Source: Terrabacter aerolatus
GTDB taxonomy: Bacteria > Actinomycetota > Actinomycetes > Actinomycetales > Dermatophilaceae
Reading direction: 5' to 3'
Length of the DNA: 64,000 nucleotides
NCBI RefSeq assembly: GCF_007991735.1
Contig: NZ_BJYX01000008.1
Span: 1-64,000 of the forward strand
Below the pieces are notes generated by a model. The model was not told the DNA's origin. It saw only the letters and a list, made by a program, of their open reading frames with translations, and searched no databases. Each line of letters begins with the position of its first letter. The first letter of the stretch is position 1. Shown one piece after another: positions 2 through 62,908 of the stretch. A program made the translations under genes and the position numbers.

Positions 2-2980
2 CCCGAGCCGCGCGGTGACCTCATGCCGGCGGGGCTCTTCGTCGACACGGTCTACCGCGACCAGCGCGGCCGCCGCGGGGTGCCCGAGCTCAGCTACGGC
101 CTGCGCCCGACCCGCTGGACCCGCGCCGGCACGTGGCACCGCACCCTGTCGTGGCACGACGCCCTGCCGCAGTGGCGGCCGGGCATCCGCTTCCTGCCCG
201 AGCACGAGCGCATCATGGGACGCCTGCACGACGTCGCCCGGCACGGCTCGGGCGGCACGACCTACTTCTCCGCCACGCCGCCACTCTCGCTGGACGCGAG
301 CCCCGACGTGTGGCCGCTGCTGCGCGAGGCCCGCGCGGCCGGCATCGAGGTGCTGCCCGGCGAGGGGGTCACCGGGCCGGTCCACCTCGTCGACGACGCC
401 GCCTCGCTCGTGCTGCTCGTCAAGCGGGCCGCCGACGGCAGCGGTGACCTCGACCTCGACGTCGAGATCGAGGGCCTCCCGGCCGAGGCCACCGGCGAGC
501 GCCTCTACCTCGGCGACCCCGTGCACGCCGTGGCGTTCGAGGGCGACGACGGCTCGCTGACGTTCGTCCCGCTCGACCAGGAGCTGGACCTCAGCCCCGA
601 GGCACTCGCTTCGGCACTCGCCGGGCTCCGCGTCCCCGCCGACGAGCGCGGCCGCTTCCTGCGCTCGGTCGTCCCCGGCCTCCGGCAGCGGCTGCGGGTC
701 CGGTCCGAGGTCCCGCTGCCCGCGCCGGAGCTGCCCGCCGAGGCCGAGCCGGAGGTGGTCACGGTCCACGTCCGGGTCGTCAGCGACGTCCCCGGCGAGC
801 TGCGGCTCGACCTCGGCCACGCCTACGACGGCACGCCGCGCCCGTTCACGACGGCGCGCTTCGGCACGGTCGGTGGCCGTGACCGCGACGCCGAGTCCGC
901 CGCCGTCCAGGCGGCGACGTCGCTCCGGTGGGTGCCGGGAGCCCTCCGCTCCGACCTCGGTGGCCATGCCTACCTCGTGCCGCGAGTCGTGCTCACCGGC
1001 CTCGCAGCCGCGCGCTTCGTCGTCGACACCCTGCCCCTGCTCGAGGCCGACGAGCACGTCACCCTCGAGGTCGACGAGGACCTCCCGGCCTACGAGGAGG
1101 TCACGTCGGCCCCGGTCGTCCGCCTCGGCGCGCGAGAGGCGACGGTCGCCGCCGCAGCTGCCGGTGCGGGCGGCACGCAGGCCGAGCGCCGCGACAGTGA
1201 GCCCGGCGACTGGTTCGACCTGCGCGTCTCCGTCGAGGTCGACGGAGAGGAGGTGCCGTTCGAGCCGCTCTTCGGCGCGCTGGCCCGCGGCGACGACATC
1301 ATGCTGCTCGACTCCGGCGCCTTCTTCCGGCTCGACCGGCCCGAGCTGCACCGGCTGCGCGCGCTCATCGAGGAGGCCCGCGACATCGCCGACCCCGAGA
1401 CCGGCGGCCTGCGCCTCAGCGCCCACCACGCCGACCTCTGGGACGAGCTCGTCGCCCTCGGCGTCGTCGACGAGCAGAGCGCCCGCTGGGCCGCCAACGT
1501 CGAGGCGCTCGGCTCGCTCGAGTCAGGTCCCTTGGCCGAGGTGCCACCCGACCTGCGCGCCACGCTGCGGCCCTACCAGCTCGACGGCTACCGCTGGCTC
1601 GCCCGTCTCTGGGACGCCCGCATCGGCGGGATCCTCGCCGACGACATGGGCCTCGGCAAGACGCTCCAGGTCATCGCGGCCCTCGTCCGCGCGCACGACC
1701 GCGGCGAGCTCGGTGGGGGTGGACCCGACGCCCGCGGGCCGGTCCTCGTCGTCGCGCCGACGAGCGTCGTCGGCACGTGGATGGGCGAGCTCGAGACCTT
1801 CGCGCCGCACCTGCGCGCCGTCGCCGTCACCGCGACGGAGCGCAAGCGTGGCGTCCCGCTCGCCGAGACCGTGGCGGGCGCCGAGGTCGTCATCACCTCG
1901 TATGCCGTCCTGCGCCTCGACGACGCCGCCTTCCACGCCGTGCGGTGGGGTGGCGTCGTCCTCGACGAGGCCCAGTTCGTCAAGAACCGCCAGGCCAAGA
2001 CGCACGTCGCCGTCCGACGGCTCGGAGCGCCGTTCACGGTGGCGGTCACCGGTACCCCGCTCGAGAACTCCCTCATGGACCTGTGGTCGCTGCTGTCGCT
2101 GACGGCGCCCGGGCTCTACCCGCGCCCCGACGTCTTCACGAAGAACTACCGCAAGCCCATCGAGTCGGGCGAGCGGCCCGAGCTGCTCGCCCTGCTGCGC
2201 CGGCGCATCCGGCCCCTGATGCTGCGCCGCACCAAGGAGCAGGTGGCCGTCGACCTGCCGCCCAAGCAGATCCAGGTCATGGCGCTCGACCCGCACCCGG
2301 TCCACCGCCACATCTACGACCAGCACCTCCAGCGCGAGCGGCAGCGCGTCCTCGGCCTGCTCGACGACCCCGAGGCCAACCGGGTCGCGATCCTCGCGTC
2401 GCTGACCCGGCTGCGCCAGCTCGCCCTCGACCCGGTGCTCGTCGACGAGGTCCACGGCGGCAAGGCGACGGCCGCCAAGGTCGACTTCCTCGTCGACCAG
2501 CTGCGCGAGCTCGCCGCCGAGGGCCACCGTGCCCTCGTCTTCAGCCAGTTCACCGGCTTCCTGCGCATCGTCGAGGCCGCGCTGACGCGCGCTGGCCTGC
2601 ACACGGCATACCTCGACGGGTCGACCACCGACCGGCAGTCCGTCGTGCGCGGGTTCCGCGAGGGCGACGCGGTGGCCTTCCTCATCAGTCTCAAGGCCGG
2701 CGGGTTCGGGCTGACCCTCACCGAGGCCGACTACGTTTACGTCCTCGACCCGTGGTGGAACCCCGCCGCCGAGGCGCAGGCGATCGACCGGGCGCACCGC
2801 ATCGGCCAGAGCCGTCCGGTCACCGTCTACCGTCTCGTGTCGGCCGGCACCATCGAGGAGAAGGTCGTGGGGCTCCAGGAGCGCAAGCGCGACCTCTTCC
2901 AGCGGGTCGTCGACGAAGGCGGCTCGCTCTCGGGGGCCATCACGGCCGACGACGTGCGCGACCTGCTCGGCCTGGCGTGA
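2..2980 (+). CDS. SNF2-family DEAD/DEAH-like helicase, 5' end cut by window
   Basis: ATP-dependent DNA translocase/helicase of the Swi2/Snf2 superfamily. The frame is open to the first base of the window and an ATG at 23 sits inside conserved-looking sequence (GLRPTRWTRAGTW), so the true start lies upstream; residue numbers here count from that ATG. Roughly residues 1-500 are the large accessory N-terminal region typical of bacterial SNF2 proteins. The ATPase begins with LRPYQLDGYRW near 512, the Walker A DDMGLGKT near 540 and the DEAQ box near 647. The second RecA-like domain starts near 818 (LVFSQFTGFL) and ends with motif VI (DRAHRIGQSRPVTVYRLV). Substrate and partners cannot be read from sequence. 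A second SNF2 protein of a different subtype lies at 41.6-43.8 kb. Function in DNA repair or chromosome remodelling is inference. Confidence 0.93.
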   Translation, partial: PEPRGDLMPAGLFVDTVYRDQRGRRGVPELSYGLRPTRWTRAGTWHRTLSWHDALPQWRPGIRFLPEHERIMGRLHDVARHGSGGTTYFSATPPLSLDASPDVWPLLREARAAGIEVLPGEGVTGPVHLVDDAASLVLLVKRAADGSGDLDLDVEIEGLPAEATGERLYLGDPVHAVAFEGDDGSLTFVPLDQELDLSPEALASALAGLRVPADERGRFLRSVVPGLRQRLRVRSEVPLPAPELPAEAEPEVVTVHVRVVSDVPGELRLDLGHAYDGTPRPFTTARFGTVGGRDRDAESAAVQAATSLRWVPGALRSDLGGHAYLVPRVVLTGLAAARFVVDTLPLLEADEHVTLEVDEDLPAYEEVTSAPVVRLGAREATVAAAAAGAGGTQAERRDSEPGDWFDLRVSVEVDGEEVPFEPLFGALARGDDIMLLDSGAFFRLDRPELHRLRALIEEARDIADPETGGLRLSAHHADLWDELVALGVVDEQSARWAANVEALGSLESGPLAEVPPDLRATLRPYQLDGYRWLARLWDARIGGILADDMGLGKTLQVIAALVRAHDRGELGGGGPDARGPVLVVAPTSVVGTWMGELETFAPHLRAVAVTATERKRGVPLAETVAGAEVVITSYAVLRLDDAAFHAVRWGGVVLDEAQFVKNRQAKTHVAVRRLGAPFTVAVTGTPLENSLMDLWSLLSLTAPGLYPRPDVFTKNYRKPIESGERPELLALLRRRIRPLMLRRTKEQVAVDLPPKQIQVMALDPHPVHRHIYDQHLQRERQRVLGLLDDPEANRVAILASLTRLRQLALDPVLVDEVHGGKATAAKVDFLVDQLRELAAEGHRALVFSQFTGFLRIVEAALTRAGLHTAYLDGSTTDRQSVVRGFREGDAVAFLISLKAGGFGLTLTEADYVYVLDPWWNPAAEAQAIDRAHRIGQSRPVTVYRLVSAGTIEEKVVGLQERKRDLFQRVVDEGGSLSGAITADDVRDLLGLA

Positions 2981-3023
2981 GCGGCGTGGCGCGCCCGTCG
3001 TCCTGAGGTGGACAATCGGGCGG

Positions 3024-4941: not shown

Positions 4942-6375
4942 TCACGGGGTGGGCCGGGCGAGCCGGTCGATGACGCCGAGGAGCAGTGCTTCGCGCAGCT
5001 CGGGCGGCAGGGCGTCGAGCAGGGCGTTGACCGGTGCCATCCGCTCGGGGAGCACGAGCTGCCCGTCCCCACCGGCCAGTCCGGCCGCGCCGAGCAGGGC
5101 CGTGAACGTCGACTCGTCGAGGGTGGCCGGGTCGATCGCCGCCGCCATCGCGACGAGCTCGGGCGCCGACCTGGCCGGCCCGGACGCCTGCGCGGTCGCG
5201 GTCGAGGCGGCCAGGTCCGCGGCGATGAGCGCCGACGACGCGGCCGTCGCCGCGCTGAAGGTCAGGTGCAGGGTGGCCGGCAGGTCACGGAGGCGCATCT
5301 GCGGCTGGACGAACCAGCCGCGCTCGAGCATCTCGTCGCTGATGGTGAAGACGTCGCACGAGTCGTCGGCGACGAGCGAGAGCAGGGTCGAGTCGGGTGG
5401 GGCGGCCACGGACAGCCCCGGTATGCCGTCCACTGCGGCCGCGAGGTCGAGCGTCGCCGTGCGCGCGTCCCGGGCGAGCGAGGTGTAGCGGTCGGCGCCG
5501 ATGTGGTGCACGACCGCCCAGGCGGCGGCCACCGGACCGCCCGACTTCGTCGACTGGGCGGTCGTGTTGAGCATCGTGTAGCCCGGCCAGCGGGCCGATG
5601 CGAAGAGGTGCGTGCGTCGCAGGTCGGCGCTGGCGTGCAGCAGCACCGAGACGCCCTTGGGGGTGTAGGCGTACTTGTGCAGGTCGAGCGACAGGCTCGT
5701 CACGCCGTCGACGGCGAAGGTCCACGCCTGCTGTCCCGGTTCGGTCGAGCGCAGGTGGGGCAGCACCCAACCGCCGATGCAGGCGTCGACGTGGCAGCGC
5801 ACGCCTGCAGCCGCGGCCGCCGCGGCGATCGGCTCGACAGGATCGATGACACCGTGGGCGTAGGAGGGGGCCGAGGCGACGACGAGCACGGTGCGCTCGT
5901 CGATCGCGGCGGCCATGGCCTCGGGATCGGCACGCTTCGTCACCGGGTCGACGTCGACGAGGACCGGCTCGACGCGCAGCCAGTGCGCCGCCTTGTGGAA
6001 CGCCGCGTGCGCCGTCGTCGGCAGCACCATCCGGGGAGCGACGACGTCGGGCCGCGCGTCCCGGGCGGCGAGGACCGCCAGCAGGATCGACTCCGTGCCG
6101 CCGGAGCTGACGACTCCCGCGAATCCCGCAGGTGCGTCGACGAGCCGGCCGGCGATGCCGACGAGGTCGTTCTCCATCTGCAGCAGGGACGGGAAGGCCG
6201 TGGGGTCGAGGCCGTTCGTCGAGGCGAACGCCGCCAGGGCCTCGCGGCCGATGGCGTCGGCGGACGCCAGACCCGAGTCGTAGACGTAGGCGAGGGTGCG
6301 CCCGCCGTGGGTCGGCAGGTCGCGGGCGCGCATGGCCGTCAGCGCCTCGCGGATCTCGTCGTGGTCCATCGTCAT
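4942..6375 (-). CDS. PLP-dependent decarboxylase / sphingosine-phosphate-lyase-like enzyme
   Basis: A 477-residue fold-type I pyridoxal-phosphate enzyme of the group II decarboxylase / sphingosine-1-phosphate-lyase-like group. The cofactor-binding motif SSGGTESILLA and the aspartate in HVDACIGGW are present. The Schiff-base lysine is in SLDLHKYAYTPKG, at about residue 234. After it comes the typical RTHLFASARWPGYTMLNT segment. The start ATG overlaps the stop of the transporter gene as ATGA, so translation is coupled and the gene belongs to the six-gene minus-strand run. The substrate is not evident; an aldehyde-lyase or amino-acid decarboxylase reaction is equally compatible. Its place in a galactoside operon is unexplained. 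Confidence 0.85.
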   Translation of the reverse strand: MTMDHDEIREALTAMRARDLPTHGGRTLAYVYDSGLASADAIGREALAAFASTNGLDPTAFPSLLQMENDLVGIAGRLVDAPAGFAGVVSSGGTESILLAVLAARDARPDVVAPRMVLPTTAHAAFHKAAHWLRVEPVLVDVDPVTKRADPEAMAAAIDERTVLVVASAPSYAHGVIDPVEPIAAAAAAAGVRCHVDACIGGWVLPHLRSTEPGQQAWTFAVDGVTSLSLDLHKYAYTPKGVSVLLHASADLRRTHLFASARWPGYTMLNTTAQSTKSGGPVAAAWAVVHHIGADRYTSLARDARTATLDLAAAVDGIPGLSVAAPPDSTLLSLVADDSCDVFTISDEMLERGWFVQPQMRLRDLPATLHLTFSAATAASSALIAADLAASTATAQASGPARSAPELVAMAAAIDPATLDESTFTALLGAAGLAGGDGQLVLPERMAPVNALLDALPPELREALLLGVIDRLARPTP

Positions 6376-7820
6376 CGCTCGTCCTCCTCGTCGTCACTCG
6401 TGCCCGTCGTGCTGCCGCCCTCGGGTCGATGCGCGCGCGCGGTCTCTGGCGTGCGCAAAGACATCGACCGGATGGCAGAGGGGGCGGCAGGGGTCTCGTC
6501 GTGAGGTGGGGCGAGGGTGAAGGTGCGCAGGGCGAGCAGCGAGACGGCGACGAGGACGGCCGGCACGAGCGAGAACCCGAGTCCGATCGCCGTCAGGGCC
6601 GAGCCCGACTGGGCGACAGCACCGTTCGTCGACGACACGTAGCCGCCGAGAGCCAGCACGCCGGCATACGCGGCGGGACCGAGCGCCAGGCCCAGCGTCT
6701 CGCCGGCTGTCCAGACGCCGGTGTAGAGCCCGACGCGCGTGCGGGTCTCGGCCGTCCGGCTCGCGACGTCGGCGAGCATCGCGAGGGGGAACATCTGGGC
6801 CCCGGCGTAGCCGGTGCCCACGACGGCGACGCAGACGTAGACGACGCCCTCGGGCAGCGACCGCAGCAGCACCAGGGCCAGTGCCCCGCCGCCGAGCAGC
6901 AGGGACGCCACGAGGTAGCCGGTCTTCTTGCCCCGTACCGTGCCGAAGCGCTGCCACAACGGCGTCACGACGAGGGCCGGTGCGACGAAGCAGACGAAGA
7001 GCAGGGTGGCCGAGAGGGGGGACCCGATGAGCCATCGCGCGACGTAGTCGACGCCGGCGAGCATCGCGCCCGTCGCGAGGGCCTGGAGCACGAAGGTCGT
7101 CAGCAGCAGCCGGAACGGCCTGTCGGAGCGGATGATCCGCAGCTGGTCACCGAAGGTCGCGCTGGTCGCGACGCCGGCGACGACGCGCGCCGACCGGGTG
7201 CTTCGCCAGGCGCCCCAGGCCCCGATCGCGATGAGCGCCGCGACGAAGAAGCCGACGGCGCGGTAGCCCCAGTCGGGCCCGAGCGCGTCCCGGATGGCTG
7301 GTGAGGCGCCGCCGCTGACGAGGATCGCGAGGGCGAGGATCGCGACGCGCCACGTCATGAGCCGCGTGCGCTCGTCGTAGTCGTCGGTGATCTCGGCCGG
7401 CATCGCGACGTAGGGCACCTGGAAGAAGCTGTAGGCCGTCGCGCAGGCGAGGTAGGCGACGGCGACCCACCCGGCAGCGAGCCACTGCGGGGCGGTCGGT
7501 CCGAGGAAGAGCAGGGCGAAGGCCGCCGCGAGGAGCAGGCCGGCGCGGATGAGGAAGGGTCGTCGCCGGCCCCCCGGGTGCGTCGACCGGTCGCTGATGC
7601 GGCCCGCGACCGGGTTGAGCACGACGTCCCAGGCCTTGGGCGCGAAGACGATGACCCCGGCCACAGCGGCCGTCACCCCGAGGCGGTCGGTGAGGTAGGG
7701 GAGCAGGAGCAGCCCCGGCACCGTGCCGAACGACCCCGTCGCCACCGAGCCCAGGCCGTAGCCGCGGCGCACGGAGGCGGGTAGGGGCGGGCTCGCGGCC
7801 GGCGTCGTCGCCGAGGTCAT
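6372..7820 (-). CDS. GPH-type (MelB-like) sugar:cation symporter, MFS
   Basis: A 482-residue inner-membrane transporter with about 12 hydrophobic segments. The N-terminal GLGSVATGSFGTVPGLLLLPYLTDRLG and the DVVLNPVAGRISDRSTHPGGRRRPF loop are the signature of the glycoside-pentoside-hexuronide:cation symporter group. The highly charged RRRPF loop between helices 2 and 3 is clear. It lies 26 bases downstream of galK and overlaps the PLP-enzyme gene, so it is part of the galactoside operon and is likely to import a galactoside or galactose. The exact sugar and coupling ion cannot be read. It would be a second uptake route beside the ABC importer on the other strand. Confidence 0.88.
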   Translation of the reverse strand: MTSATTPAASPPLPASVRRGYGLGSVATGSFGTVPGLLLLPYLTDRLGVTAAVAGVIVFAPKAWDVVLNPVAGRISDRSTHPGGRRRPFLIRAGLLLAAAFALLFLGPTAPQWLAAGWVAVAYLACATAYSFFQVPYVAMPAEITDDYDERTRLMTWRVAILALAILVSGGASPAIRDALGPDWGYRAVGFFVAALIAIGAWGAWRSTRSARVVAGVATSATFGDQLRIIRSDRPFRLLLTTFVLQALATGAMLAGVDYVARWLIGSPLSATLLFVCFVAPALVVTPLWQRFGTVRGKKTGYLVASLLLGGGALALVLLRSLPEGVVYVCVAVVGTGYAGAQMFPLAMLADVASRTAETRTRVGLYTGVWTAGETLGLALGPAAYAGVLALGGYVSSTNGAVAQSGSALTAIGLGFSLVPAVLVAVSLLALRTFTLAPPHDETPAAPSAIRSMSLRTPETARAHRPEGGSTTGTSDDEEDER

Positions 7821-7846: not shown

Positions 7847-9027
<1,181 letters not shown>

Positions 9028-9031: not shown

Positions 9032-10158
9032 GGGGCGACCTCCCGCAGACGGGCGGCTGCCCGCTCCGGAGCGACGTCGTTGACCCAGCCGCCGACACCC
9101 GACTCGGAGCCGGCGAGGAACTTCAGGCGACCCGGCCCACGCAGCACCGACATCAGCTGCAGGTGCAGGCGGGACACGTCGCGACCGGCGCGGGCCGGCG
9201 CCTGCTGCCACGCCGCGATGTAGGGCAGCCGCACGGGCGTCCCGTCCTCCTCGACGTAGTAGCGGTCGAGGCGGCCGAGCAGGTCGCGGTAGATGACGGC
9301 CAGCTCGTCACGCTCGTCGTCGTCGAGCGCCGGGAGGTCGGGCACGTCGCGGTGCGGGGCCAGGTGCACCTCGACCGGCCAGCGCGCAGCGAAGGGGACG
9401 TAGGCCGTCCAGTGCGTCCCGGAGACGACGACCCTCGAGCCGTCGGCCCGCTCGGCGGCGAGGATGTCGGCGCCGAGCAGCCGCCCGGTGCGCTCGTGGT
9501 GGCGGCGGGCCGCCTCGAGCAGGGCCTTGGTGCGGTCCGGCACGTAGGGGTAGGCGTAGATCTGACCGTGGGGGTGGGGCAGCGTGACCCCGATCTCCTT
9601 GCCACGGTTCTCGAACGCGAAGACGTGCTCGACCTCGGGGATCGCCCCCAGGGCCTCGGTGCGCTGCGCCCACGTGTCGATGACGGTGCGCACGCGCTCG
9701 ACCGGAAGGTCCTTGAACGAGGACTCGTGGTCGCTCGTGAAGCAGACGACCTCGCACCGCCCGACGGCCGGACGGGTGCCGAAGATCCCCGTCGGGTCCG
9801 GAGCGTCGGCGCCGACGGAGGTGACGGCATACGAGGGGAAGCGGTTCTCGAAGACGACGACCTGGTAGTCGGGCTCGGGGATCTCGGAGGGCACCGAGCC
9901 GAGCCCGGCCGGGCAGAGCGGGCACTCGTCCTTGGGCGGCATGAAGGTCCGGTGCTGGCGGTGGGCCGCGACGGCCACCCAGTCGTCGACGAGCGCGTCG
10001 TGGCGCAGCTCGCCCGACTGCACCCGCGGCTCGACGGGGCGAGGGTCCTCGGCGGTGCGCTCTGGGGTCCCGGGCTCGTCGACGTAGATGATCTCGCGCC
10101 CGTCGGCGAGGCTCCTCGACGTGAAGCGGATGCTGGTCCGGCTGGGCGTGGACATCAT
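9028..10158 (-). CDS. galT: Galactose-1-phosphate uridylyltransferase
   Basis: Exchanges galactose-1-phosphate with UDP-glucose to give UDP-galactose and glucose-1-phosphate. The active-site motif HPHGQIYAYPY holds the nucleophilic histidine. A CPLCP pair near residue 90 and later histidines fit the structural metal site, and VEVHLAPHRDVP and LHLQLMSVLRGPGRLKFLAG are classic C-terminal family segments. Length is 376 residues. Two ATG codons occur in tandem at the start; the first overlaps the regulator stop as ATGA, and GGAGG lies just upstream and may serve the second better. No galE is present in the window, so epimerisation must be encoded elsewhere. Confidence 0.96.
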
Positions 10159-10933: not shown

Positions 10934-12931
10934 TCAGTCCTCCCTGAGCACGGCCGCGCCACCGGGGGCGAGGCGGACCTGGCCGTCGACCGGGGTGTCC
11001 GCGACGAGGTCGTACCCGTTCGCGGAGACCGTCTGCTCCTCCGCCGTGTGGTTGAGCAGGAAGAGCCACGACGTCGTGCCGTCGCTGCGCCGCGTCGTCT
11101 CGACGCCGCGGGGGAGGCCGGCCACGACGGGAGCGACACCGGCCGCGGCCAGCACGTCGTCGAGCAGCGTGGCCAGCGTGGCGTCATCCGGGAGCGTGCT
11201 GACGTACCAAGCGGATCCGGCGTCGCCGTCCCCGGCCCGTCGGGTGACCGCGGGCCGGCCGGCCAAGGGGCCTGCGGCATACGTCATGAGCACGTCGGTG
11301 CCGGCCAGTGCGGTCACGTCCTCGCTCCACCACGTGCCGGCGCCGCCCGAGAGGGCGACGGTGCCACCGGGGCCGAGGGGGAAGAACTCCTCGACCCGGA
11401 CCCCGAGGAGGTCGCGGAACGCACCCGGGTAGCCGCCGAGCCGGACGTGGTCGTTCTCGTCGCTGATCCCCGAGAAGTACGTGACGAGCACCTCCGCGCC
11501 CGCCTCGGCCGCCGCGGCGACGGCAGCGGCGTGCTCGTCGGTGACGAGGTAGAGCTGCGGCACGACGACGAGGTCGTATGCCGTGAGGTCGGCCGACGGG
11601 TGGACGACGTCCGCCGTGACGCCGCGGTCGTGCAGCGCCCGGTGGATGGCCTGCGCGGCCGTCAGCGCGTCGAGCTCGGAGCTCGGCATGCACGGACCCT
11701 CGGCGGCCCAGATCGCCTGGTAGTCGTGGAGGATCGCGACGCGCGACTCGACGCGGCTGCCGACGAGCTCGCCGAGACGGCCGGCGATGCGGCCCAGCTC
11801 CTCGACCTCGCGGAAGCGGGCGCTGTCGGCTCCCGCGTGCGGCACGACGGCGCTGTGGAACTTCTCCGAACCCGCGCGGGACTGGCGCCACTGGAACCAG
11901 CCGATGGTGTCGGCGCCGCGGGCCACGTGGGCGAGGGCGTCGCGGATGGTCTGGCCGAAGTCCTTGGCGTGGTTGGTCGGCTGCCAGTTGACGGCGCTCG
12001 TCGAGTGCTCCATGAGCATCCACGGCGCGCCCCCCGCGAGACCGCGCGTCAGGTCACCGCTGTAGGCGAGCTCGGCGCGCGGGTGCTCGAGGGCGTCGAC
12101 GATGTAGTGGTCGGTGCTGACGACGTCGACCGTGGGCGTCCACTGCGTGTAGTCGAGGTGGCGGAAGTGGTCGAGCGTCATGAAGTTCGTCGTCACGGGG
12201 ACGCCGGGGGAGAGCTCGTCGAGGACGGCGCGCTCGGCCCGCAGGTGCTCGAGCAGCGCGTCGGAGCTGAAGCGCTTGTAGTCGAGGACGTGCGTCGGGT
12301 TGTTGAAGGTCGTCGACCGGCGCGGCGGGAGGATCTGCTCCCAGTCGGTGTAGCGCTGGCTCCAGAAGGCCGTGCCCCACGCGTCGTTGAGGACGTCGAG
12401 CCCCGCGTAGCGCCGCTGCAGCCACGTGCGGAAGTGGCGGGCGCACTCGTCGCAGTAGCAGGGCAGGTTGTGGCAGGCGTACTCGTTGGAGACGTGCCAC
12501 ATCGCCAGGGCCGGGTGCTCGTGGTAGCGGGTGGCGAGCTGCCGGGTCAGCGCGACGGCGTACTCGCGGAAGACGGGGGAGGTGGGGCACCACGCCTGCC
12601 GGCTGCCCGGCCACAGCGTGTGGCCGTCGACGTCGACGGGCAGGATCTCGGGGTGCGCGGCCGACAGCCAGGGCGGCGGGGTGGCCGTCGCCGTGGCGAG
12701 GTCGACGGCGATGCCTCCGGCGTGCAGCTTGTCGAGGATCGTGTCGAGCCACTCGAACTCGTACTCGCCCTTGGCCGGCTCGAGCCAGCTCCACGAGAAG
12801 ATCCCGAGGCTGACGAACGAGATGTTGGCGCGCCGCATCAGCTCGACGTCCTCGTCCCAGACAGGGCGAGGCCACTGCTCCGGGTTGTAGTCGCCACCGA
12901 GTGCCAGGGTCTTCGTCGGCCATGAGCGCAT
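10934..12931 (-). CDS. Beta-galactosidase, GH42
   Basis: A 665-residue intracellular glycoside hydrolase family 42 enzyme that releases galactose from beta-galactosides. The N-terminal LGGDYNPEQWP is diagnostic of GH42. The acid/base Glu150 lies in MWHVSNEYACHN and the nucleophile Glu308 in PWMLMEHSTSAVNW. Cysteines in NLPCYCDEC plus Cys115 form the zinc cluster found in many GH42 enzymes. The middle glutamine-amidotransferase-like trimerisation domain and a small C-terminal beta domain follow. There is no signal peptide, so substrate must be imported. It is the first gene of the minus-strand operon and is read divergently from the sugar ABC importer. I see no strong ribosome site upstream of the ATG. 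Confidence 0.95.
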   Translation of the reverse strand: MRSWPTKTLALGGDYNPEQWPRPVWDEDVELMRRANISFVSLGIFSWSWLEPAKGEYEFEWLDTILDKLHAGGIAVDLATATATPPPWLSAAHPEILPVDVDGHTLWPGSRQAWCPTSPVFREYAVALTRQLATRYHEHPALAMWHVSNEYACHNLPCYCDECARHFRTWLQRRYAGLDVLNDAWGTAFWSQRYTDWEQILPPRRSTTFNNPTHVLDYKRFSSDALLEHLRAERAVLDELSPGVPVTTNFMTLDHFRHLDYTQWTPTVDVVSTDHYIVDALEHPRAELAYSGDLTRGLAGGAPWMLMEHSTSAVNWQPTNHAKDFGQTIRDALAHVARGADTIGWFQWRQSRAGSEKFHSAVVPHAGADSARFREVEELGRIAGRLGELVGSRVESRVAILHDYQAIWAAEGPCMPSSELDALTAAQAIHRALHDRGVTADVVHPSADLTAYDLVVVPQLYLVTDEHAAAVAAAAEAGAEVLVTYFSGISDENDHVRLGGYPGAFRDLLGVRVEEFFPLGPGGTVALSGGAGTWWSEDVTALAGTDVLMTYAAGPLAGRPAVTRRAGDGDAGSAWYVSTLPDDATLATLLDDVLAAAGVAPVVAGLPRGVETTRRSDGTTSWLFLLNHTAEEQTVSANGYDLVADTPVDGQVRLAPGGAAVLRED

Positions 12932-18759: not shown

Positions 18760-19299
18760 TCAGGTGGGGGACGGGGCGCAGTCGCGGCACGTGCCCAGGA
18801 GGGCGGCGTGCCCGGTGTCGAGGGTGAACCCGAGGTCGGCGCGCAGCCGCGCGGCCGCCTCGTCGAACACGTCCGGTGCCACGTCGAGCACACGCCCGCA
18901 GACGTGGCACTGGACGTGGGCGTGGCCGTGCTCGTGCCGGTGGTGGGGCGCCGGCGCGTCCACCTCGGTGGCCACGGAAGCCGCTGACCGCGCCACGCCG
19001 CCCACGGTGAGGTGGTAAACCGTCGCCGACCCGCCGAGGTGGACGTGCGAGAGCACGCCGGTCTCGACGAGCGCCGTGAGCGTCCGGTAGACGGTGGCCC
19101 GGTGCACGGCCGGCTCGACCTCGGCGACGCGCGCCCCGATCTGCTCGGCCGTGAGGTGCTCGTCGCCGAGGTCGGCGGCGTCGACGACGCGCAGCACGGC
19201 ATACCTCGCCGGCGTGACCCGCTCACCCGCGGACCGCAGCCGCGACACGGCGTCGGCCACGCGGACACTCGGGTGCGTGCTCTCGGGTGACGTGGACAC
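18760..19299 (-). CDS. Fur-family metal/peroxide-responsive regulator
   Basis: A 179-residue winged-helix repressor of the Fur/Zur/PerR family. Residues about 10-95 form the DNA-binding domain ([15 protein letters not shown] and [18 protein letters not shown]). A histidine-rich hinge ([18 protein letters not shown]) carries regulatory metal ligands and the first CxxC, and a second pair CRDC lies near the C-terminus, together a structural zinc site. The His-rich hinge fits a zinc sensor, but Zur versus Fur versus PerR cannot be settled from sequence. The GTG at 19299 gives the best-supported N-terminus; it is divergent from tdh with only 32 bases between starts, so it could also affect tdh. 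Confidence 0.9.
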
Positions 19300-20369: not shown

Positions 20370-20380
20370 GAGGCTTTCGT

Positions 20381-31820: not shown

Positions 31821-33863
<2,043 letters not shown>

Positions 33864-36051: not shown

Positions 36052-37859
<1,808 letters not shown>

Positions 37860-48430: not shown

Positions 48431-49123
48431 TCAGGTCGTCCGGGTGGTGCCGGTGGTGCTCGTGCCCTGGTCGTCCTGGCCCTGCCCCTGGTCGTCGGAG
48501 AAGGGGTCGGTGCCGGGAGCGAGCTGTCCGCTCTGACCCAGCAGCTGCAGGAGGTCCTGCGGGTCGAGCTGGCTCAGCTGGTTCGGGTCGAGGTTGCCCA
48601 GTCCGCCGGACGTGCCGTTCTGGAGGTTGGGCAGCTGCTGGGGAGTCGTGCCCTGCTGGTTCTGCAGGCCCTGCTGGTTCTGGAGACCCTGCTGGCCCCG
48701 CGGGAACGGGAAGGTGCGGCCGCCACCCGGTCCACGGAAGCCACCGTCGCCGCCGGTCGAGCCGGACGGCAGGGCCGCCGCCGCACCGATGGCGCCGGCC
48801 GAGGTGAGCAGGAGCGCGAGGCCCGCGGTCACGGCCGTCTTCTTCGCGTTCCAGCGGGATCCGCCGCCACCGGGAGCTGCCGTCTCCCGGGTCGGGAGGC
48901 CAGTGGGTGAGAGGGGGACACCGGGGCCGGCGAGCGGGGTCGCGGCACTCGGCGACGCGGCATACGCGTACGGCGTCGACGGAGGGGTCACGGGGATCTC
49001 GCTCGTCGCGGCGGCCGGGAGCTGCTGCGTGTCGTCGGCGGCTGTGGGACGGCGGGGGTCGAACTGGGGGAGCACCGACGTGGGCTGCTCACCCGGAACC
49101 TGCGGCGTGGACTCGTTGCTCAT
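48431..49123 (-). CDS. Single-pass membrane protein with Gln/Asn-rich exterior
   Basis: A 230-residue protein of unknown function. Residues 1-85 are Pro/Thr/Ser-rich and cytosolic-looking; KKTAVTAGLALLLTSAGAIGAAAALP is one membrane helix; the exterior contains GGFRGPGGGRTFPFPRG and a repeated QQGLQNQQGLQNQQG segment, then QLSQLDPQDLLQLL. It is divergent from the response-regulator gene with 148 bases between starts and may share its control. The exterior composition (Gln, Asn, Gly, Pro) resembles that of secreted low-complexity proteins. No family recognised. Confidence 0.7.
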   Translation of the reverse strand: MSNESTPQVPGEQPTSVLPQFDPRRPTAADDTQQLPAAATSEIPVTPPSTPYAYAASPSAATPLAGPGVPLSPTGLPTRETAAPGGGGSRWNAKKTAVTAGLALLLTSAGAIGAAAALPSGSTGGDGGFRGPGGGRTFPFPRGQQGLQNQQGLQNQQGTTPQQLPNLQNGTSGGLGNLDPNQLSQLDPQDLLQLLGQSGQLAPGTDPFSDDQGQGQDDQGTSTTGTTRTT

Positions 49124-50009: not shown

Positions 50010-51690
50010 CACCGGCCACGTCGACACCGACCTGCCCGACCCGGCCGACCTCCCCGAGGACGACGGCTCCAGCGGCGCCGACCTCTTCCCCGAGGGCGTC
50101 GGCTTCCGCGACGAGGACGACGACCCGACGGCGTATGCCGTGCCAGCCGCGACCGGGGCCGCCTCGGCCGCGGACCCGGCCGGGGTCGACGACCCGGCGG
50201 GCCCGGCGTCGCTGCGCGAGCGGTGGGTCGCCGTGCGCGAGCGGGTGCGGCCGTGGTCGGCCTGGACGCTGCGCGCCAAGCTCGTCGCGTCGATGCTCGC
50301 CCTGTTCACCGTGCTCAGCATGATGACCGCGGTCTTCTCCGTGACGGCGCTCAACCAGTCGCTCATCGGGCAGGTCGACCAGCAGCTGTCCGACGCGCTG
50401 AACCGGCCGAGCCGGGGCGGCCCGGACGACGGCGGTGACGGCGGTGCGGGAGGCGGCCCCGGCGCCGACCGGATGGAGGTCTTCCTCACGACGAACGGCA
50501 ACGCGGGCTACGTCTACCGCGCGGGTGCGCGAACCAGCCTGAGCGCCAACCAGATCGCCATCGTCAAGGCGGCCGGCCTCGGGTCGGTCCCCAAGACCCT
50601 CGACCTCGGCGGTGACACGGGCCGGTACCGCATGGTCGCGGCGACCCGCCAGATCCGGAACCTCCAGACGGGCGACCAGGTCACGGGTACCTACGTCGCC
50701 GGCATCTCGACCGGGCCGACCGACGTCATCGTCGGACGCATGATCGTCATCGCGATCGCGACGGTGGGCGCCGGCATCATCCTCGTCGCGCTCATCGGGA
50801 CCTGGCTCGTGCGCCGCAACCTCGAACCCCTGCGGCGGGTGGCCGCCACGGCCACCAAGGTGTCGCAGACGCCGCTCGCGTCGGGGCGGGTGGCGCTCGC
50901 CGAGCGCGTCGATCCCGCCGACACCGACACCCGCACCGAGGTCGGTCAGGTGGGTGCGGCCTTCAACGAGATGCTCGACCACGTCGACGAGGCCCTGAAC
51001 TCCCGGCACCAGAGCGAGCAGCGGGTGCGGCAGTTCGTCGCCGACGCCTCGCACGAGCTGCGCACCCCGCTCGCCTCGATCAAGGGGTACGCCGAGCTGT
51101 CCCGGCGCGAGCCCGAGGCCGTCCCTCAGACGGTCACCCACGCGATGGGTCGCATCGAGTCCGAGGCCAACCGGATGAGCTCGCTCGTCGAGGACCTGCT
51201 CCTGCTCGCGCGGCTCGACGCCGGGCGCCCCCTCGAGGAGGCCCCGGTCGACATGTCGATGCTCGTCATCAACGCCGTCAGCGACGCCCACGCGGCCTCG
51301 CCCGGACACCGGTGGGACCTCGACCTGCCGCCGGAGCCCGTCGAGGTCACCGGGGACGGCGCACGGCTGCACCAGGTCGTGGCCAACCTGCTCGCCAACG
51401 CGCGCACGCACACCCCCGACGGCACCCGGGTCACGACCTCGGTGCGGCCCGAGGGCGAATGGGTGCGGGTCGCCGTCCACGACGACGGGCCGGGCGTGCC
51501 GGACTCGTTGCAGCCCAACGTCTTCGAGCGCTTCGCCCGAGGTGACGACGCCCGGGTCCGTGCCGGTGGCAGCACCGGGCTGGGCCTGTCGATCGTCGCG
51601 GCGGTGAGCAAGGCGCACGGCGGACGCGTCGAGCTCGACAGCAGACCCGGCGACACGACGTTCAGCCTCCTCCTGCCGGCCGCCCCCTGA
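49987..51690 (+). CDS. Sensor histidine kinase, HAMP type
   Basis: A 567-residue membrane kinase, partner of the preceding regulator. Residues 1-95 are an acidic, disordered cytosolic extension. Helix 1 is LVASMLALFTVLSMMTAVFSV; a sensor region of about 120 residues outside contains a Gly/Asp-rich insert (GGPDDGGDGGAGGGPGADR); helix 2 is MIVIAIATVGAGIILVALIGTWLV. A HAMP linker (RRNLEPLRRVAATATKV) leads to HisKA with His356 in DASHELRTPLASIKGY and an ATPase with NLLANARTHT, DDGPGVP and GSTGLGLSIVAAV. The start overlaps the regulator gene, giving coupled translation. The signal is unknown. Confidence 0.94.
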   Translation: MSSSRPSDTGHVDTDLPDPADLPEDDGSSGADLFPEGVGFRDEDDDPTAYAVPAATGAASAADPAGVDDPAGPASLRERWVAVRERVRPWSAWTLRAKLVASMLALFTVLSMMTAVFSVTALNQSLIGQVDQQLSDALNRPSRGGPDDGGDGGAGGGPGADRMEVFLTTNGNAGYVYRAGARTSLSANQIAIVKAAGLGSVPKTLDLGGDTGRYRMVAATRQIRNLQTGDQVTGTYVAGISTGPTDVIVGRMIVIAIATVGAGIILVALIGTWLVRRNLEPLRRVAATATKVSQTPLASGRVALAERVDPADTDTRTEVGQVGAAFNEMLDHVDEALNSRHQSEQRVRQFVADASHELRTPLASIKGYAELSRREPEAVPQTVTHAMGRIESEANRMSSLVEDLLLLARLDAGRPLEEAPVDMSMLVINAVSDAHAASPGHRWDLDLPPEPVEVTGDGARLHQVVANLLANARTHTPDGTRVTTSVRPEGEWVRVAVHDDGPGVPDSLQPNVFERFARGDDARVRAGGSTGLGLSIVAAVSKAHGGRVELDSRPGDTTFSLLLPAAP

Positions 51691-51898: not shown

Positions 51899-53974
51899 AT
51901 GGACACGATGACCCTCACCACCACGGGCGGGACCGGCACCGCGTCGGCGCCCGCCGGACCGGCAGACGCCCGGCCCCAGACCTCCCGGCCCATCGCCCGT
52001 GCGGGTCGTCCGTCTCGGTGGCGGCGCCTCTGGCGCGGCACCGACACCGACCCGTCCTGGGCCCGACCCGCCCTGTTCGGGCTCCTCCTGCTGACGCTCG
52101 TGCTCTACACGTGGAACCTCACGGCGAGCGGCTACGCCAACTCCTTCTACTCCGCGGCGGTCCAGGCCGGCAGCGACAGCTGGAAGGCGTTCTTCTTCGG
52201 CAGCTCCGACGCCGCCAACTCGATCACCGTCGACAAGCCGCCGGCCTCCCTCTGGGTCATGGCCCTGTCGGTGCGGCTGCTCGGTCTCAGCTCGTTCGCG
52301 ATCCTCCTCCCGCAGGCGCTCATGGGCGTCGCGACCGTCGGTGTCGTCTACGCGACGGTCCGGCGCCAGTTCGGCGCGGCGGCGGGCCTCGTCGCCGGCG
52401 TCGTCCTCGCCCTGACCCCGGTCGCGGCGCTGATGTTCACCTTCAACAACCCCGACGCCCTCCTGACGCTGCTCATGGCCCTCGGCGCGTGGGCCACGAT
52501 CAAGGCCATCGAGCAGGCCTCCCCGAAGTGGATGATGATCGTCGGCGTCTTCATCGGGCTCGGCTTCCTCACCAAGACCCTGCAGGTCCTGCTCGTCGTG
52601 CCCTTCTTCGGCCTCGCCTACCTCGTCGCGGCGCCGACGACCCTGCGCAAGCGGATCGTCCACTCCCTCCTGGCCGTGGGCACGATGGTGCTGTCGGCCG
52701 GCTGGTGGGTCGCGATCGTCGAGCTCGTGCCGGCCTCGGCCCGTCCGTACATCGGTGGCAGCCAGACGAACTCGTTCCTCGAGCTCACCTTCGGCTACAA
52801 CGGGCTCGGCCGCCTGAGCGGCAACGAGACCGGCTCGGTCGGCGGTGGCGGAGGTGGCGCGACCGGGGGCGGCATGTGGGGCTCGACCGGCCTGTTCCGG
52901 ATGTTCTCCACGAGCGTCGGGGACCAGATCTCCTGGCTCATCCCGAGCGCGCTCATCCTGCTCGTCACCGGCCTGTGGCTGCGGGGACGCCGCCCGCGCA
53001 CCGACCTGCGCCGTGCCGCCTACCTCGTCTGGGGCGGCTGGCTCGTCGTGACGATGCTCGTCTTCTCGTTCATGGCCGGCATCTTCCACGAGTACTACAC
53101 CGTGGCCCTCGCCCCGGCGATCGCCGCCCTCGTGGGCATGGGCGCCGTGGAGGCCTGGCAACGCCGCTCCAGCGCGGTCGCGACCATCGCCCTCGCCGCT
53201 GCGACGGCCGCGGCCGCGACGTGGAGCTTCATCCTCCTCTCGCGCACCACGGCCTACGGTGACTGGCTGCGCGTCTCCGTCCTCGCGGTCGGCATGGCTG
53301 CCGCGCTCCTCATCCTCGCGACGCGATGGATGCACGCCCGCGCCGTGCCCCTCGTCCTGGCGGCAGCACTCGTCGCCGGCCTCGCCGGCCCGGGGGCGTA
53401 TGCCGTGTCGACCACCTCCCAGGGCCACAGCGGCTCGATCGTCACGGCCGGTCCCGCCGGATCGAGCCGAGGCCCCGGCGGCTTCGGCGGCGGGGGTGGC
53501 ACGCCGCCCCAGCTGCCCGGCCAGACCGGCCAGACCGGACAGGCCGGTGGCACCGGGACGGCCCAGCAGGGCGGCCCGCAGGGTGGCGCGGGGGGCGGCA
53601 TGGGTGGCCTGCTCGACGCCTCGACCCCGAGCACCGCTGTCGTCTCGGCCCTGTCGGCCAACGCCGACACGTACACGTGGGTGGCGGCGGCCGTCGGTTC
53701 GCAGACGGCGGCCGGGCTCCAGCTCGGCACACAGCTGCCGGTCATGGCCATCGGCGGCTTCAACGGGTCGGACCCGAGCCCGACGCTCGCGCAGTTCAAG
53801 CAGTACGTCGCGAACGGCAAGATCCACTACTTCGCCTCCGGCGGACGCGGGTTCGGCAACCAGAACGGCGGCAGCAGCGCCTCGAGCGAGATCAGCACGT
53901 GGGTGGAGGAGAACTTCACCTCGGTGACGATCGACGGCTCGACGTTCTACGACCTCACGCAGCCCCTCAAGTGA
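51899..53974 (+). CDS. Glycosyltransferase family 39 (PMT/ArnT-like, YkcB-type)
   Basis: A 691-residue polytopic membrane glycosyltransferase that would use a polyprenyl-phosphate sugar donor. Helix 1 (ALFGLLLLTLVLYTWNL) is followed by the catalytic-loop region NSFYSAAVQAGSDSWKAFFFGSSDAANSITVDKPPASLWVMALS, where the conserved acidic residue and the VDKPP motif are typical. About ten further helices follow. A glycine-rich loop (GSVGGGGGGATGGGMWGS) and a long Gly/Gln/Thr-rich segment precede a C-terminal extracellular domain (about 590-691: TYTWVAAAVGSQTAAGLQL, MAIGGFNGSDPSPTLAQFKQYVANGKIHYFASGG). Acceptor unknown: cell-wall polymer or protein. The GTG of the next gene overlaps its stop. Confidence 0.9.
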   Translation: MDTMTLTTTGGTGTASAPAGPADARPQTSRPIARAGRPSRWRRLWRGTDTDPSWARPALFGLLLLTLVLYTWNLTASGYANSFYSAAVQAGSDSWKAFFFGSSDAANSITVDKPPASLWVMALSVRLLGLSSFAILLPQALMGVATVGVVYATVRRQFGAAAGLVAGVVLALTPVAALMFTFNNPDALLTLLMALGAWATIKAIEQASPKWMMIVGVFIGLGFLTKTLQVLLVVPFFGLAYLVAAPTTLRKRIVHSLLAVGTMVLSAGWWVAIVELVPASARPYIGGSQTNSFLELTFGYNGLGRLSGNETGSVGGGGGGATGGGMWGSTGLFRMFSTSVGDQISWLIPSALILLVTGLWLRGRRPRTDLRRAAYLVWGGWLVVTMLVFSFMAGIFHEYYTVALAPAIAALVGMGAVEAWQRRSSAVATIALAAATAAAATWSFILLSRTTAYGDWLRVSVLAVGMAAALLILATRWMHARAVPLVLAAALVAGLAGPGAYAVSTTSQGHSGSIVTAGPAGSSRGPGGFGGGGGTPPQLPGQTGQTGQAGGTGTAQQGGPQGGAGGGMGGLLDASTPSTAVVSALSANADTYTWVAAAVGSQTAAGLQLGTQLPVMAIGGFNGSDPSPTLAQFKQYVANGKIHYFASGGRGFGNQNGGSSASSEISTWVEENFTSVTIDGSTFYDLTQPLK

Positions 53975-54531
53975 CGACGATGTCCGCCACGACGAACAAA
54001 CCCCTGTCGTTCCGACGGGTCCGGCTGTCGCAGCAGATCATCCGGTTCGCGGGGGTGGGCGTGCTGTCCACCGTCCTGCACCTCGGCCTCTTCGCGGCCC
54101 TGGTGCGGGGCGGTGCACCCTCGCAGCTGGCCAACGGTGCGGCGCTCGTGCTGGCGACGCTCTTCAACACCGCCCTCAACCGGGCGTGGACCTTCGGGGT
54201 GTCGGGCCGGCGCAAGCTCGTCTCCCACCACGGCCAGGCCCTCGTGATCTTCGCGATCACGTATGCGGCCACGACTGCGGCGCTCGCCCTGCTCGGTGCG
54301 GTCGCCCCCGATGCCGGCACCGTCGTGCAGACCGCGGTCGTGGCGGCGGCCAACGTCCTGTCGACGGCGGCACGGTTCGTGGCCATGCAGCGGTGGATCT
54401 TCCGCCCCTCGGCGGAGGCCACCGCCGAGGCCGTGGACGTCGCCACCCGCTCGGCCGACGGGGCCACGGACCGCGACGACCCGGCATACGCCAGCGGTGC
54501 CGTGGTCGAGGGACCGCGGCGGCGGGGCTGA
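53971..54531 (+). CDS. GtrA-family membrane protein
   Basis: A 186-residue GtrA-like protein with four helices (QIIRFAGVGVLSTVLHLGLFAALV ... LANGAALVLATLFNTALNRAWTFG ... FAITYAATTAALALLGAV). The NRAWTF motif is typical. GtrA proteins flip or shuttle polyprenyl-phosphate sugars for partner glycosyltransferases, which fits its coupling to the GT39 gene. The GTG at 53971 overlaps the upstream stop (GTGA); an ATG at 53980 is the alternative start. The C-terminal 40 residues are acidic and cytosolic. Confidence 0.88.
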   Translation: MTTMSATTNKPLSFRRVRLSQQIIRFAGVGVLSTVLHLGLFAALVRGGAPSQLANGAALVLATLFNTALNRAWTFGVSGRRKLVSHHGQALVIFAITYAATTAALALLGAVAPDAGTVVQTAVVAAANVLSTAARFVAMQRWIFRPSAEATAEAVDVATRSADGATDRDDPAYASGAVVEGPRRRG

Positions 54532-55654: not shown

Positions 55655-55787
55655 GGGCTTCTCCTGCCTGTCGTGCCTCACGGCGCGGGCGGCCACGCGG
55701 GCGCGGGCTGCCGTCATTCTCGTCCAGCGACGGGGCGCCCGCCCGAGTTCCCGGGGGTCGTATGCCGTGTGGCGCGGGGCCTGCTCG

Positions 55788-57769: not shown

Positions 57770-57848
57770 CCTTCCCGGCACACCTCCCAGCATGCGCACG
57801 AAGCACGACACACGGCATACGACCACCACCGAGCAAAGGGGACATCCC

Positions 57849-61923: not shown

Positions 61924-62790
61924 CTAGGAGGCCGGGCCCTGCTGGGGTATGCCGTCGGGCGAGTCCGCGGACCCCGGCCGTTCGCGCAGGGTGAGCCACA
62001 GGCGGTGCGCGGTGATGACGGCCAGGGCCCAGGCGAGCCCGATGAGCCAGCCGGCGAGCACGTCGGTGAGCCAGTGGTGCCCGAGGAAGACCCGGGAGAG
62101 TCCCATGGTGACGACGAAGACCGTGCCGAGGGTGATCGCGAGGGTGCGCTGCCAGGCTGCCGTCGACTCGATGAGGACGAGGTAGACGACGATCGTCGTG
62201 AGGACCGTCGCGTTGAGCGTGTGGCCGCTGGGGAACGACGGCGACACCTCGAGGGGCGGCACGGCGAGGGACGCCGGCGGTCGGGCCCGGTCGACGACGT
62301 TCTTGCCGACGACCGTCATGGCGAGCGACCCGGCAGCGGCGATGAGGGTCAGCACGATCGGGGTCCACCGGCGCCGGCGCCACGTGATGACCGCGACGGC
62401 CACGAGCGCGAGGATCGGCATGCCGACCGGTCCACCGACGTCGGTGAAGGCCGTGACCGCGGAGTCGAGTCCGGGGGAGCGCAGCGAGATCGCGGCGTCG
62501 AGGACGGGCTGGTCGACGGCGGTCGGGCCGTTCCGTCCGACGACGCCCTCGTAGACGGTCTCGATGCCCTCGACGAGGGCGATCAGGACGACGAGGGCGA
62601 CGACGGCGAAGACGACGAACGCCAGGTGGGCCGAGGACCACGACGCGACCCGGCGCGCGGCCGGTCGCGAGGCTCGGGCCAGTCCGGCGAAGACGCCGAC
62701 GAGCCACCGCCCGAAGCGCGAGCGCCAGGCCGTGAGGTCCCGGTCGCCGATCGTGTCGTCCGGGGCCTGCGGGCGGGTGAGGTCTGGCAT
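61924..62790 (-). CDS. PAP2-family membrane phosphatase
   Basis: A 288-residue integral membrane phosphatase (phosphatidate or polyprenyl-pyrophosphate type). The three signature motifs are clear: KNVVDRARP, PSFPSGHT and SRVFLGHHWLTDVLAGW. Six hydrophobic helices are visible. The two genes read leftward with a 10-base gap to the flavoprotein, so they are probably one operon. Substrate not determinable from sequence. Confidence 0.93.
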   Translation of the reverse strand: MPDLTRPQAPDDTIGDRDLTAWRSRFGRWLVGVFAGLARASRPAARRVASWSSAHLAFVVFAVVALVVLIALVEGIETVYEGVVGRNGPTAVDQPVLDAAISLRSPGLDSAVTAFTDVGGPVGMPILALVAVAVITWRRRRWTPIVLTLIAAAGSLAMTVVGKNVVDRARPPASLAVPPLEVSPSFPSGHTLNATVLTTIVVYLVLIESTAAWQRTLAITLGTVFVVTMGLSRVFLGHHWLTDVLAGWLIGLAWALAVITAHRLWLTLRERPGSADSPDGIPQQGPAS

Positions 62791-62908
62791 GACCCATCCT
62801 TACCCGCCGGGGACGTGCCCGGGGCCGCTCGGGTCGTGCGGGTCCGACCCCGCAACCGCGCACCCGCCCCCACGCCCGGCACACGGCATACGGGATCGGG
62901 TCGCCGCG

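Follow-up and report, generated by a model that had tools for sequence, protein, structure and literature searches.

The octamer in the 64-kb window of Terrabacter aerolatus

The window, that is, the stretch formed by the first 64,000 nucleotides of contig NZ_BJYX01000008.1 of Terrabacter aerolatus (RefSeq assembly GCF_007991735.1; family Dermatophilaceae), contains 33 exact copies of the octamer GTATGCCG, 16 on the plus strand and 17 on the minus strand, compared with 0.82 copies expected from 100 dinucleotide shuffles, none of which gave more than three. The 7-mer core, GTATGCC, occurs 34 times (16 plus, 18 minus; 1.57 expected), and its sole copy without the final G lies at 44079..44085 on the minus strand. 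A preliminary description of the window, made from the letters alone, had reported about 34 core copies, divided 16 to 18 between the strands, far above composition and present between genes as well as within them, and the counts bear this out. The 24 single-base neighbors of GTATGCCG each occur 0 to 11 times in the window, and an order-2 model of the window ranks the octamer second among the 8-mers, behind an overlapping word alone.

The first copy starts at position 1900 and the last ends at position 62891. According to a simple gene caller, 6 of the 33 copies are intergenic, three of them on the plus strand (20379..20386, 44021..44028, and 55760..55767) and three on the minus strand (26676..26683, 57813..57820, and 62884..62891). 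Within genes, the Tyr-Ala frame is used by the plus-strand copies at 1900..1907, 16647..16654 (in a GH36-type gene), 17316..17323, 27174..27181, 39535..39542, 50133..50140 (in a histidine kinase gene), and 53398..53405 and by the minus-strand copies at 6662..6669, 8851..8858, 9825..9832, 11275..11282, 19197..19204, 25342..25349, 35023..35030, and 48958..48965. The Met-Pro frame is used at 29162..29169 (minus), 33796..33803 (plus, in an NAD synthase gene), and 37223..37230 (plus). The remaining copies lie antisense in genes, either in the Ala-Tyr frame (11576..11583 on the plus strand and 2604..2611, 33655..33662, 36683..36690, and 54482..54489 on the minus strand, the copy at 33655 being in the NAD synthase gene) or in the Gly-Ile frame, which uses the ATA codon (5421..5428, 30880..30887, and 61947..61954 on the plus strand and 16863..16870 on the minus strand). 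These are the four frames named in the preliminary description, and the rare ATA sites were found exactly where it had placed them (5421, 16863/4, 30880, and 61947). The longest octamer-free stretch of the window (11576-16647, 5.1 kb) covers the 4-kb bin of lowest GC content (66.7%) and a gene for a solute-binding protein.

Enrichment, spacing, and placement

The whole genome (4.42 Mb in 62 contigs) contains 2163 copies of GTATGCCG, 1072 on the plus strand and 1091 on the minus strand, or ~0.5 per kb, compared with 195 copies of the reversed control. In a 435-kb sample composed of the window and 371 kb of contig 1, the octamer ranked first of the 8-mers under a motif-masked order-3 model, with 243 copies for 1.5 expected, a ~160-fold excess. 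The enrichment is thus not confined to the window, as the whole-genome count and Markov comparison suggested at the outset have established. In this 435-kb sample, 16 of the 17 reversed-control matches overlapped the motif itself, as GCCGTATGCCG. The largest excesses among the neighbor words were those of GGATGCCG (89 versus 41.8 expected) and GTAGGCCG (44 versus 27.9), and a few rare neighbors, among them CTATGCCG (9 versus 1.6) and GTATGCCA (5 versus 0.4), were also in excess. Flank preference was weak, with C before the octamer and T after it.

Codon usage was rejected as the cause of the enrichment, since shuffling of synonymous codons in the predicted genes of the 435-kb sample left a mean of 16 copies (maximum of 23 in 30 shuffles) of the 180 observed in genes. 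These copies were read as Tyr-Ala (110), Ala-Tyr (39), Met-Pro (15), Gly-Ile (14), and Val-Cys (2). The predicted genes contained 169 TAT and 15 ATA codons, of which 65% and 14 of 15, respectively, fell within GTATGCCG; the claim that the octamer forces disfavored codons was therefore well founded. The GC content of 5-kb bins did not predict the number of copies (Spearman coefficient of 0.04).

The spacing of the octamer obeys a strand rule. The spacing sample of this genome combined the window with the 371 kb of contig 1 and with 20 kb taken from contig 2. Its variance-to-mean ratio of copies per 5 kb was 0.51, versus 1.02 to 1.15 for four control octamers counted in the window and contig 1. 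Adjacent copies in this sample were on opposite strands in 177 cases and on the same strand in 72 (p = 2e-11). Same-strand pairs closer than 1 kb numbered 21 versus 69.8 expected, with recovery by ~3 kb, whereas opposite-strand pairs closer than 1 kb numbered 67 versus 69.6 expected. Other word-rich genomes, sampled as 18 stretches, also showed alternation of the strands (67 same, 108 opposite), and so did 13 named homologous loci (38 same, 109 opposite). In 400 kb of the word-rich genome G110, 89 of 276 neighbors were on the same strand (p = 4e-9), with same-strand repulsion below 1 kb. The second octamer, GGATGCCG, behaved alike in 216 kb of genome G194, with 83 of 219 neighbors on the same strand (p = 4e-4), a variance-to-mean ratio of 0.49, and repulsion below 1 kb. 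That two different octamers follow one spatial rule is the best evidence that both are the same kind of thing. The overall evenness was less general, since spacing was uneven in G110 (ratio of 1.16) and in the 18 other word-rich stretches (1.15). For GGATGCCG in 56 kb of G068, alternation was not significant (24 same, 35 opposite) and spacing was uneven (1.32); in G194 taken as 12-kb chunks totaling 96 kb, alternation of adjacent strands was likewise not significant (43/97). Repulsion across dialects was sought in G063, G011, and G070, which held too few sites for a judgment.

As yardsticks, we used the DNA uptake sequences (DUS) of the Neisseria type (118 pieces, 64 of them nonredundant, 54 with at least four sites used, 471 sites) and the uptake signal sequences (USS) of Pasteurellaceae (120 pieces, 53 nonredundant, 29 used, 192 sites). 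These yardsticks are rough because the pieces are short viral contigs from a virus collection, selected for holding an inverted pair. The ratios of observed to expected pairs at 60 to 1000 bp (same strand/opposite strand) were 0.84/0.89 for DUS and 0.63/0.58 for USS, compared with 0.35/0.85, 0.54/1.20, and 0.54/0.93 in chunks of the genome of the window, G110, and G194, respectively. Below 500 bp, the DUS sample leaned weakly to same-strand repulsion (0.66 same versus 0.82 opposite), and 149 of 334 adjacent DUS pairs were on the same strand (p = 0.055). Thus, same-strand copies of the octamers repel each other over 1 to 3 kb and opposite strands do not, a feature that is new here; known uptake sequences display at most a weak strand effect in these rough samples.

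With respect to genes, 180 of the copies in the 435-kb sample were inside genes, 59 between genes, and 4 at gene edges, according to the simple gene caller. Intergenic DNA made up 9.8% of the sample, and the density of copies between genes was approximately threefold higher, amounting to 2.63 per kb between convergent genes, 1.46 between tandem genes, and 0.71 between divergent genes. Convergent copies less than 60 bp apart numbered 8 versus 2.1 expected in the sample of the genome of the window, 6 of the 8 lying between genes, and 10 versus 2.8 expected in G110; these close pairs constitute a minority of the copies. The 400 kb of G110 that start at dnaA, which belong to one replichore, carry 132 copies on the plus strand and 145 on the minus strand, indicating no replication-strand bias. 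The dnaA gene at the start of the G110 contig was recognized by eye from its translation, and this test bears on G110 only, the genome of the window being in contigs.

The three largest GTATGCCG-free gaps of G110 (17.3, 11.8, and 10.3 kb) had GC contents of 0.644, 0.618, and 0.633, versus 0.679. Among the 10 scanned frames of the 39 called in these gaps, the first gap contained a phage integrase, a serine recombinase, and a GmrSD-type protein, the second contained McrBC, an MmeI-like protein, and a T5orf172 protein, and, of the two frames scanned in the third, one gave matches to AAA-type models and the other none. The largest gaps of contig 1 (10.5 and 9.3 kb) were near the chance value of 9.4 kb.

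Conservation was assessed by comparing the window region with 10 of its 18 named homologous loci. At 86 to 87% identity (L022-L025, four relatives), 25 of 30 aligned copies of GTATGCCG were intact, compared with fractions of 0.38 to 0.41 for all 8-mers; the 30 comparisons are the same window sites viewed repeatedly, and alignment gaps account for four of the five misses. In six loci of more distant genera, with two sites per locus, 10 of 12 copies were kept. Comparisons of word-rich with word-poor genomes, made at one or two loci, gave 0 to 2 alignable copies per pair, none of which was kept. Retention of GTATGCCG is established for close relatives only.

Distribution in the family, other words, and competence genes

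We counted the octamer in 186 genomes of the family, including that of the window, and in 297 genomes of the order, 273 of which are outside the family. At least 300 copies were present in 110 of the 186 family genomes; the other 76 had fewer, 62 of them less than 100. None of the 273 genomes outside the family exceeded 177 copies, and the top one had a control count of 135. The nine genomes of the genus of the window each had 1423 to 2358 copies. Near-empty species were found in three word-rich genera, with 37 copies in G045 versus 1251 to 1660 in four congeners, 19 in G114 versus 1062 and 3681 in congeners, and 50 in G140 versus 394 to 1901 in thirty congeners. Loci homologous to one region of the window belonged to Terrabacter, Terracoccus, Pedococcus, Knoellia, Phycicoccus, and Nostocoides, along with bins assigned to Dermatophilaceae/Intrasporangiaceae or less defined; 13 of the 18 named loci contained GTATGCCG and 5 did not.

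Other words were searched for by k-mer counts in 20- to 120-kb samples of 22 genomes poor in the word and of 17 others, most of the latter word-rich. GGATGCCG was abundant in 7 of the 186 family genomes (3949 copies in G194, 4480 in G068, 3619 in G069, 3816 in G053, 3838 in G054, 2195 in G070, and 2099 in G071), the other 179 having 241 to 1336 copies. G070 and G071 also carry GTATGCCG (1217 and 1189 copies), as if caught between dialects. No direct switching of dialects at matching sites was seen between G068 and G070 in one 13-kb region, in which none of the four GTATGCCG copies of G070 was GGATGCCG in G068. In samples of G063, G011, and G046, GTATGACG was found alongside GTATGCCG. No replacement word was seen in 100 to 120 kb of four word-poor genomes.

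Three further words are not claimed as dialects. GTACGCCG was enriched in G120 (77 versus 17 expected in 100 kb), G050, and G051, with no significant strand alternation in G120 (41 same, 43 opposite). GTACGGCG was enriched in the sample of G114, and its alternation was not significant (22 same, 37 opposite). For CGATGCGG in G113 (L071 and L091-L094), alternation was also not significant (32 same, 47 opposite); this word occurred 82 times versus 17 expected in 100 kb and was clustered (variance-to-mean ratio of 2.14), making it possibly a further dialect or a repeat family. A repeat around TGAATCCGCGCA was found eight times in 40 kb of G045 (L067 and L083) and did not recur as one of the highest-ranking words in the 120-kb sample. 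In two genera devoid of GTATGCCG and possessing RecC, GAAGGGGG / CCCCCTTC was enriched, with 41 copies versus 6.1 expected in 100 kb of G084 (L057-L061) and 13 versus 1.1 in 20 kb of G123 (L072). This word resembles the Chi sequence of Staphylococcus, GAAGCGG, and may be the Chi of these genera.

The genome of the window encodes ComEC, adjoined by ComEA with SLBB and helix-hairpin-helix (HHH_3) domains. Its Tad locus comprises T2SSE, two T2SSF, TadE, and Tad, plus frames without a Pfam match (one of 71 residues that is Flp-like and one of 165 residues), and adjoins a protein of the FHA-FtsK/SpoIIIE type. At the Tad locus L138:1080-10725 and at the matching places in L141 and L142, a divergent FHA-FtsK/SpoIIIE gene lies beside; in L142, it was not called beside the locus. 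Whether the genome is rich or poor in the word, genes resembling prfB and ftsE/ftsX lie a few kilobases from the Tad locus. The locus near prfB looks complete both in G000, which is word-rich, and in G045 and G140, which are word-poor (all of these genes were named by eye).

None of the competence and recombination genes inspected, namely, those for ComEC, the Tad-type proteins, PilM, RecC, and PDDEXK_1, tracks the presence of GTATGCCG. ComEC was found in 180 of 186 family genomes and Tad-type T2SSF in 49 of 50, frequencies at which neither discriminates as a correlate of the octamer. The type IV pilus was also discarded as a correlate, PilM having been found in 7 of 186 genomes only; the genome of the window gave no match, which speaks against a ComP minor pilin on a type IV pilus, as in neisserial DUS, and a receptor of the known DUS type is not expected. 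RecC was found in 89 of 186 genomes and was likewise without a match in the genome of the window. It is present in G001, one of the nine genomes of the genus of the window, and in G045, in contrast to its four g33 congeners; on this scattered distribution, RecBCD seems to have been gained or lost repeatedly in the family. The PDDEXK_1 nuclease family was represented in 50 of 50 genomes, whether or not they carry the word, and paired matches ~3.4 kb apart were found in the genome of the window and in many of the others listed, the spacing that AdnA/AdnB should have.

A putative uptake sequence and competing explanations

We consider it probable, without being confident, that GTATGCCG is a DNA uptake and self-recognition sequence serving Tad/ComEA/ComEC transformation and acting directionally. 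The broader proposal, that Tad-pilus actinobacteria have a DNA self-recognition system that evolved separately from those of Neisseriaceae and Pasteurellaceae, has dialects of its own, and acts directionally, leaving a same-strand exclusion zone of 1 to 3 kb, appears to us evenly balanced between true and false. We infer that the word is recognized in uptake by a receptor, that import is directional, and that drive made the copies accumulate. DNA containing GTATGCCG would be preferred by a surface receptor, which may be one of the minor pilins of the Tad/Flp pilus or else a partner of ComEA that binds DNA; ComEC would take in one strand, and recombination would install it. Imported alleles would carry the word above chance, so that copies would accumulate and be kept by biased import, as proposed for DUS and USS, and in related genera the word would have been altered, giving dialects, or would have disappeared. 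The spacing of copies along each strand implies that the receptor would bind directionally, each copy serving its own strand over ~1 to 3 kb. Uptake by Neisseria and Haemophilus begins with the passage of double-stranded DNA through an outer membrane. In a cell with a single membrane, the surface step may couple directly to the import of a single strand by ComEC, and an oriented receptor could fix the strand that enters.

The traits of DUS and USS described in PMC1939737 and PMC3630211 recur here: copies are scattered and balanced between the strands, exist as dialects, are lost in some species, form inverted pairs, are in excess between genes, leave gaps at islands, and are retained. The strong same-strand exclusion comes in addition to these. 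The DUS of Neisseriaceae are similarly short and non-palindromic, reach thousands of copies, differ as dialects between genera, are missing from some family members, form inverted pairs at terminators, and have no orientation bias around the chromosome. PMC3630211 describes the dialects, the family members devoid of DUS, and the inverted pairs at terminators, and PMC1939737 describes the lack of orientation bias of DUS and USS around the chromosome. Unlike Neisseriaceae, the host here is an actinobacterium without a PilM match, and spacing is strand specific, whereas the DUS sample shows a weak strand effect at most. The CTG core, shared by all eight published dialects (PMC3630211), is lacking in GTATGCCG and GGATGCCG. 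The common extension GTATGCCGTC overlaps, in ATGCCGTC, the start of the neisserial AT-DUS, an overlap that is probably due to chance because this CTG core is missing.

The USS of Pasteurellaceae resemble the octamer by a similar density, a short core, more than one variant in the family, and a reported even spacing, and differ from it by their sequence and machinery and by a repulsion that is independent of orientation in our sample. Within the same phylum, Micrococcus luteus also has ComEA, ComEC, and a Flp/Tad pilus, which together form its transformation apparatus (PMC6370729). The terms "uptake sequence" and "uptake signal," however, are absent from one paper on this species, PMC4322843.

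Several observations weigh against this interpretation. Nothing clearly comparable to the strand-specific repulsion was seen in the DUS and USS samples, and a recombination signal predicts repulsion restricted to the same strand more simply. According to PMC1939737, the orientation of DUS and USS has no effect on uptake, and these sequences are less evenly spaced than sites that compact the chromosome would be. Word-rich pairs at 73 to 79% identity, compared at other loci, kept 1 of 5 aligned copies against a background of 0.12 to 0.24, and the 13-kb region of G068 and G070 kept 6 of 17 copies of GGATGCCG (6 of 11 in the reverse direction) against a background of 0.23. ComEC and Tad-type genes are equally present in word-free genomes, no receptor was found and no tested competence gene tracks the word, PilM gave no match in the genome of the window, and no transformation data for these species were found in the literature searched.

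The main competitor, which we regard as unlikely, is a Chi-like site, selected so that DNA breaks meet an oriented copy within a few kilobases, at which an end-resecting helicase-nuclease, most likely AdnAB, would stop or be loaded in a strand-directional manner. Such a signal predicts same-strand repulsion with independent opposite strands. The paired PDDEXK_1 matches of the genome of the window and the large word-free gaps of G110, two of which hold mobile or defense genes, are also in line with it. Chi of RecBCD/AddAB is, in E. coli, a non-palindromic octamer and acts directionally. In contrast to the situation expected for Chi, RecC gave no match in the genome of the window and in 7 of its 8 congeners, all of which are word-rich, and was present in word-poor G045, in word-poor G140 (partial match), and in 15 of the 16 g51 genomes. 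PDDEXK_1 occurs regardless of the word, dialects and losses exist within the family, word-poor genomes revealed no replacement word, and the enrichment is far above that of Chi. G110 shows no leading-strand bias, whereas E. coli Chi is polarized according to PMC8022716, which also allows that motifs of other lineages may be nonpolarized. The RecBCD-Chi system itself was rejected, given the missing RecC match in the genome of the window and the lack of leading-strand polarity in G110.

Less likely still is some other strand-directional signal for a DNA transaction, such as a site for a translocase, for loading in conjugation or packaging, or for a nucleoid protein, kept by selection. The strand spacing, the evenness per 5 kb in the spacing sample, and the retention in close relatives do not on their own indicate uptake, and the FHA-FtsK/SpoIIIE protein adjoins the Tad genes, although its connection to the word is speculative. 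KOPS-type translocase guides are replication-polar, and GTATGCCG in G110 is not; a chromosome-organizing sequence, one of the functions listed in the preliminary description, is disfavored in its replication-polar form by the strand balance in G110. A nonpolar organizer or a recombination signal with strand-directional action is still conceivable. The near-absence of the word from single species of word-rich genera would also suit a dispensable function better than upkeep of the chromosome.

An iterated sequence of unspecified role, similar to HIP1 (GCGATCGC) of cyanobacteria, is very improbable: both are octamers that are hyper-abundant across the genome, but HIP1 is a palindrome linked to methyltransferases, according to PMC4390886, and GTATGCCG is non-palindromic and has strand-specific spacing. 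Least credible is a functionless mutational or methylation signature, arising from deamination at methylated GTACGCC or from a repair bias, for although GTATGCCG is one C-to-T change from GTACGCC and some relatives, such as G120, are richer in GTACGCCG, deamination fails because this proposed unmutated form is not depleted (17 versus 18.3 expected in 435 kb), and neither the retention of copies between close species, nor the use of another word elsewhere, nor the regular strand spacing is predicted. Methylation alone would not be expected to enrich a site.

A Chi-like signal explains the exclusion zone more simply. It does not account for the nonpolar distribution, the missing RecC, or the dialects, nor for why genomes with the same nuclease family and no word show no evident substitute, and we therefore place the uptake sequence first, as the probable explanation, and the Chi-like site well behind it. 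The preliminary description had listed functional options without choosing among them; uptake is the one that fits best, and its deamination alternative is disfavored.

No report of an uptake sequence in this actinobacterial group was found in the literature searched, most subscription papers and preprints being outside it. In that literature, sequence-selective DNA uptake was found only in Pasteurellaceae and Neisseriaceae, in both of which type IV pili carry it out. If the octamer were a Chi-like site instead, it would be an unusual nonpolar signal in organisms without RecC. If it is an uptake sequence, this would be a third, independent case, in high-GC Gram-positive bacteria, and would show that Tad/Flp pili can also give rise to self-tagging. 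The same-strand exclusion zone would then reveal, from sequence alone, in which direction and how far the process acts, and dozens of species, with their natural losses and with mixed dialects in one genus, would make the roles of selection and molecular drive testable. For these actinobacteria, the octamer would be a genomic sign of frequent genetic exchange, and its absence would mark foreign islands.

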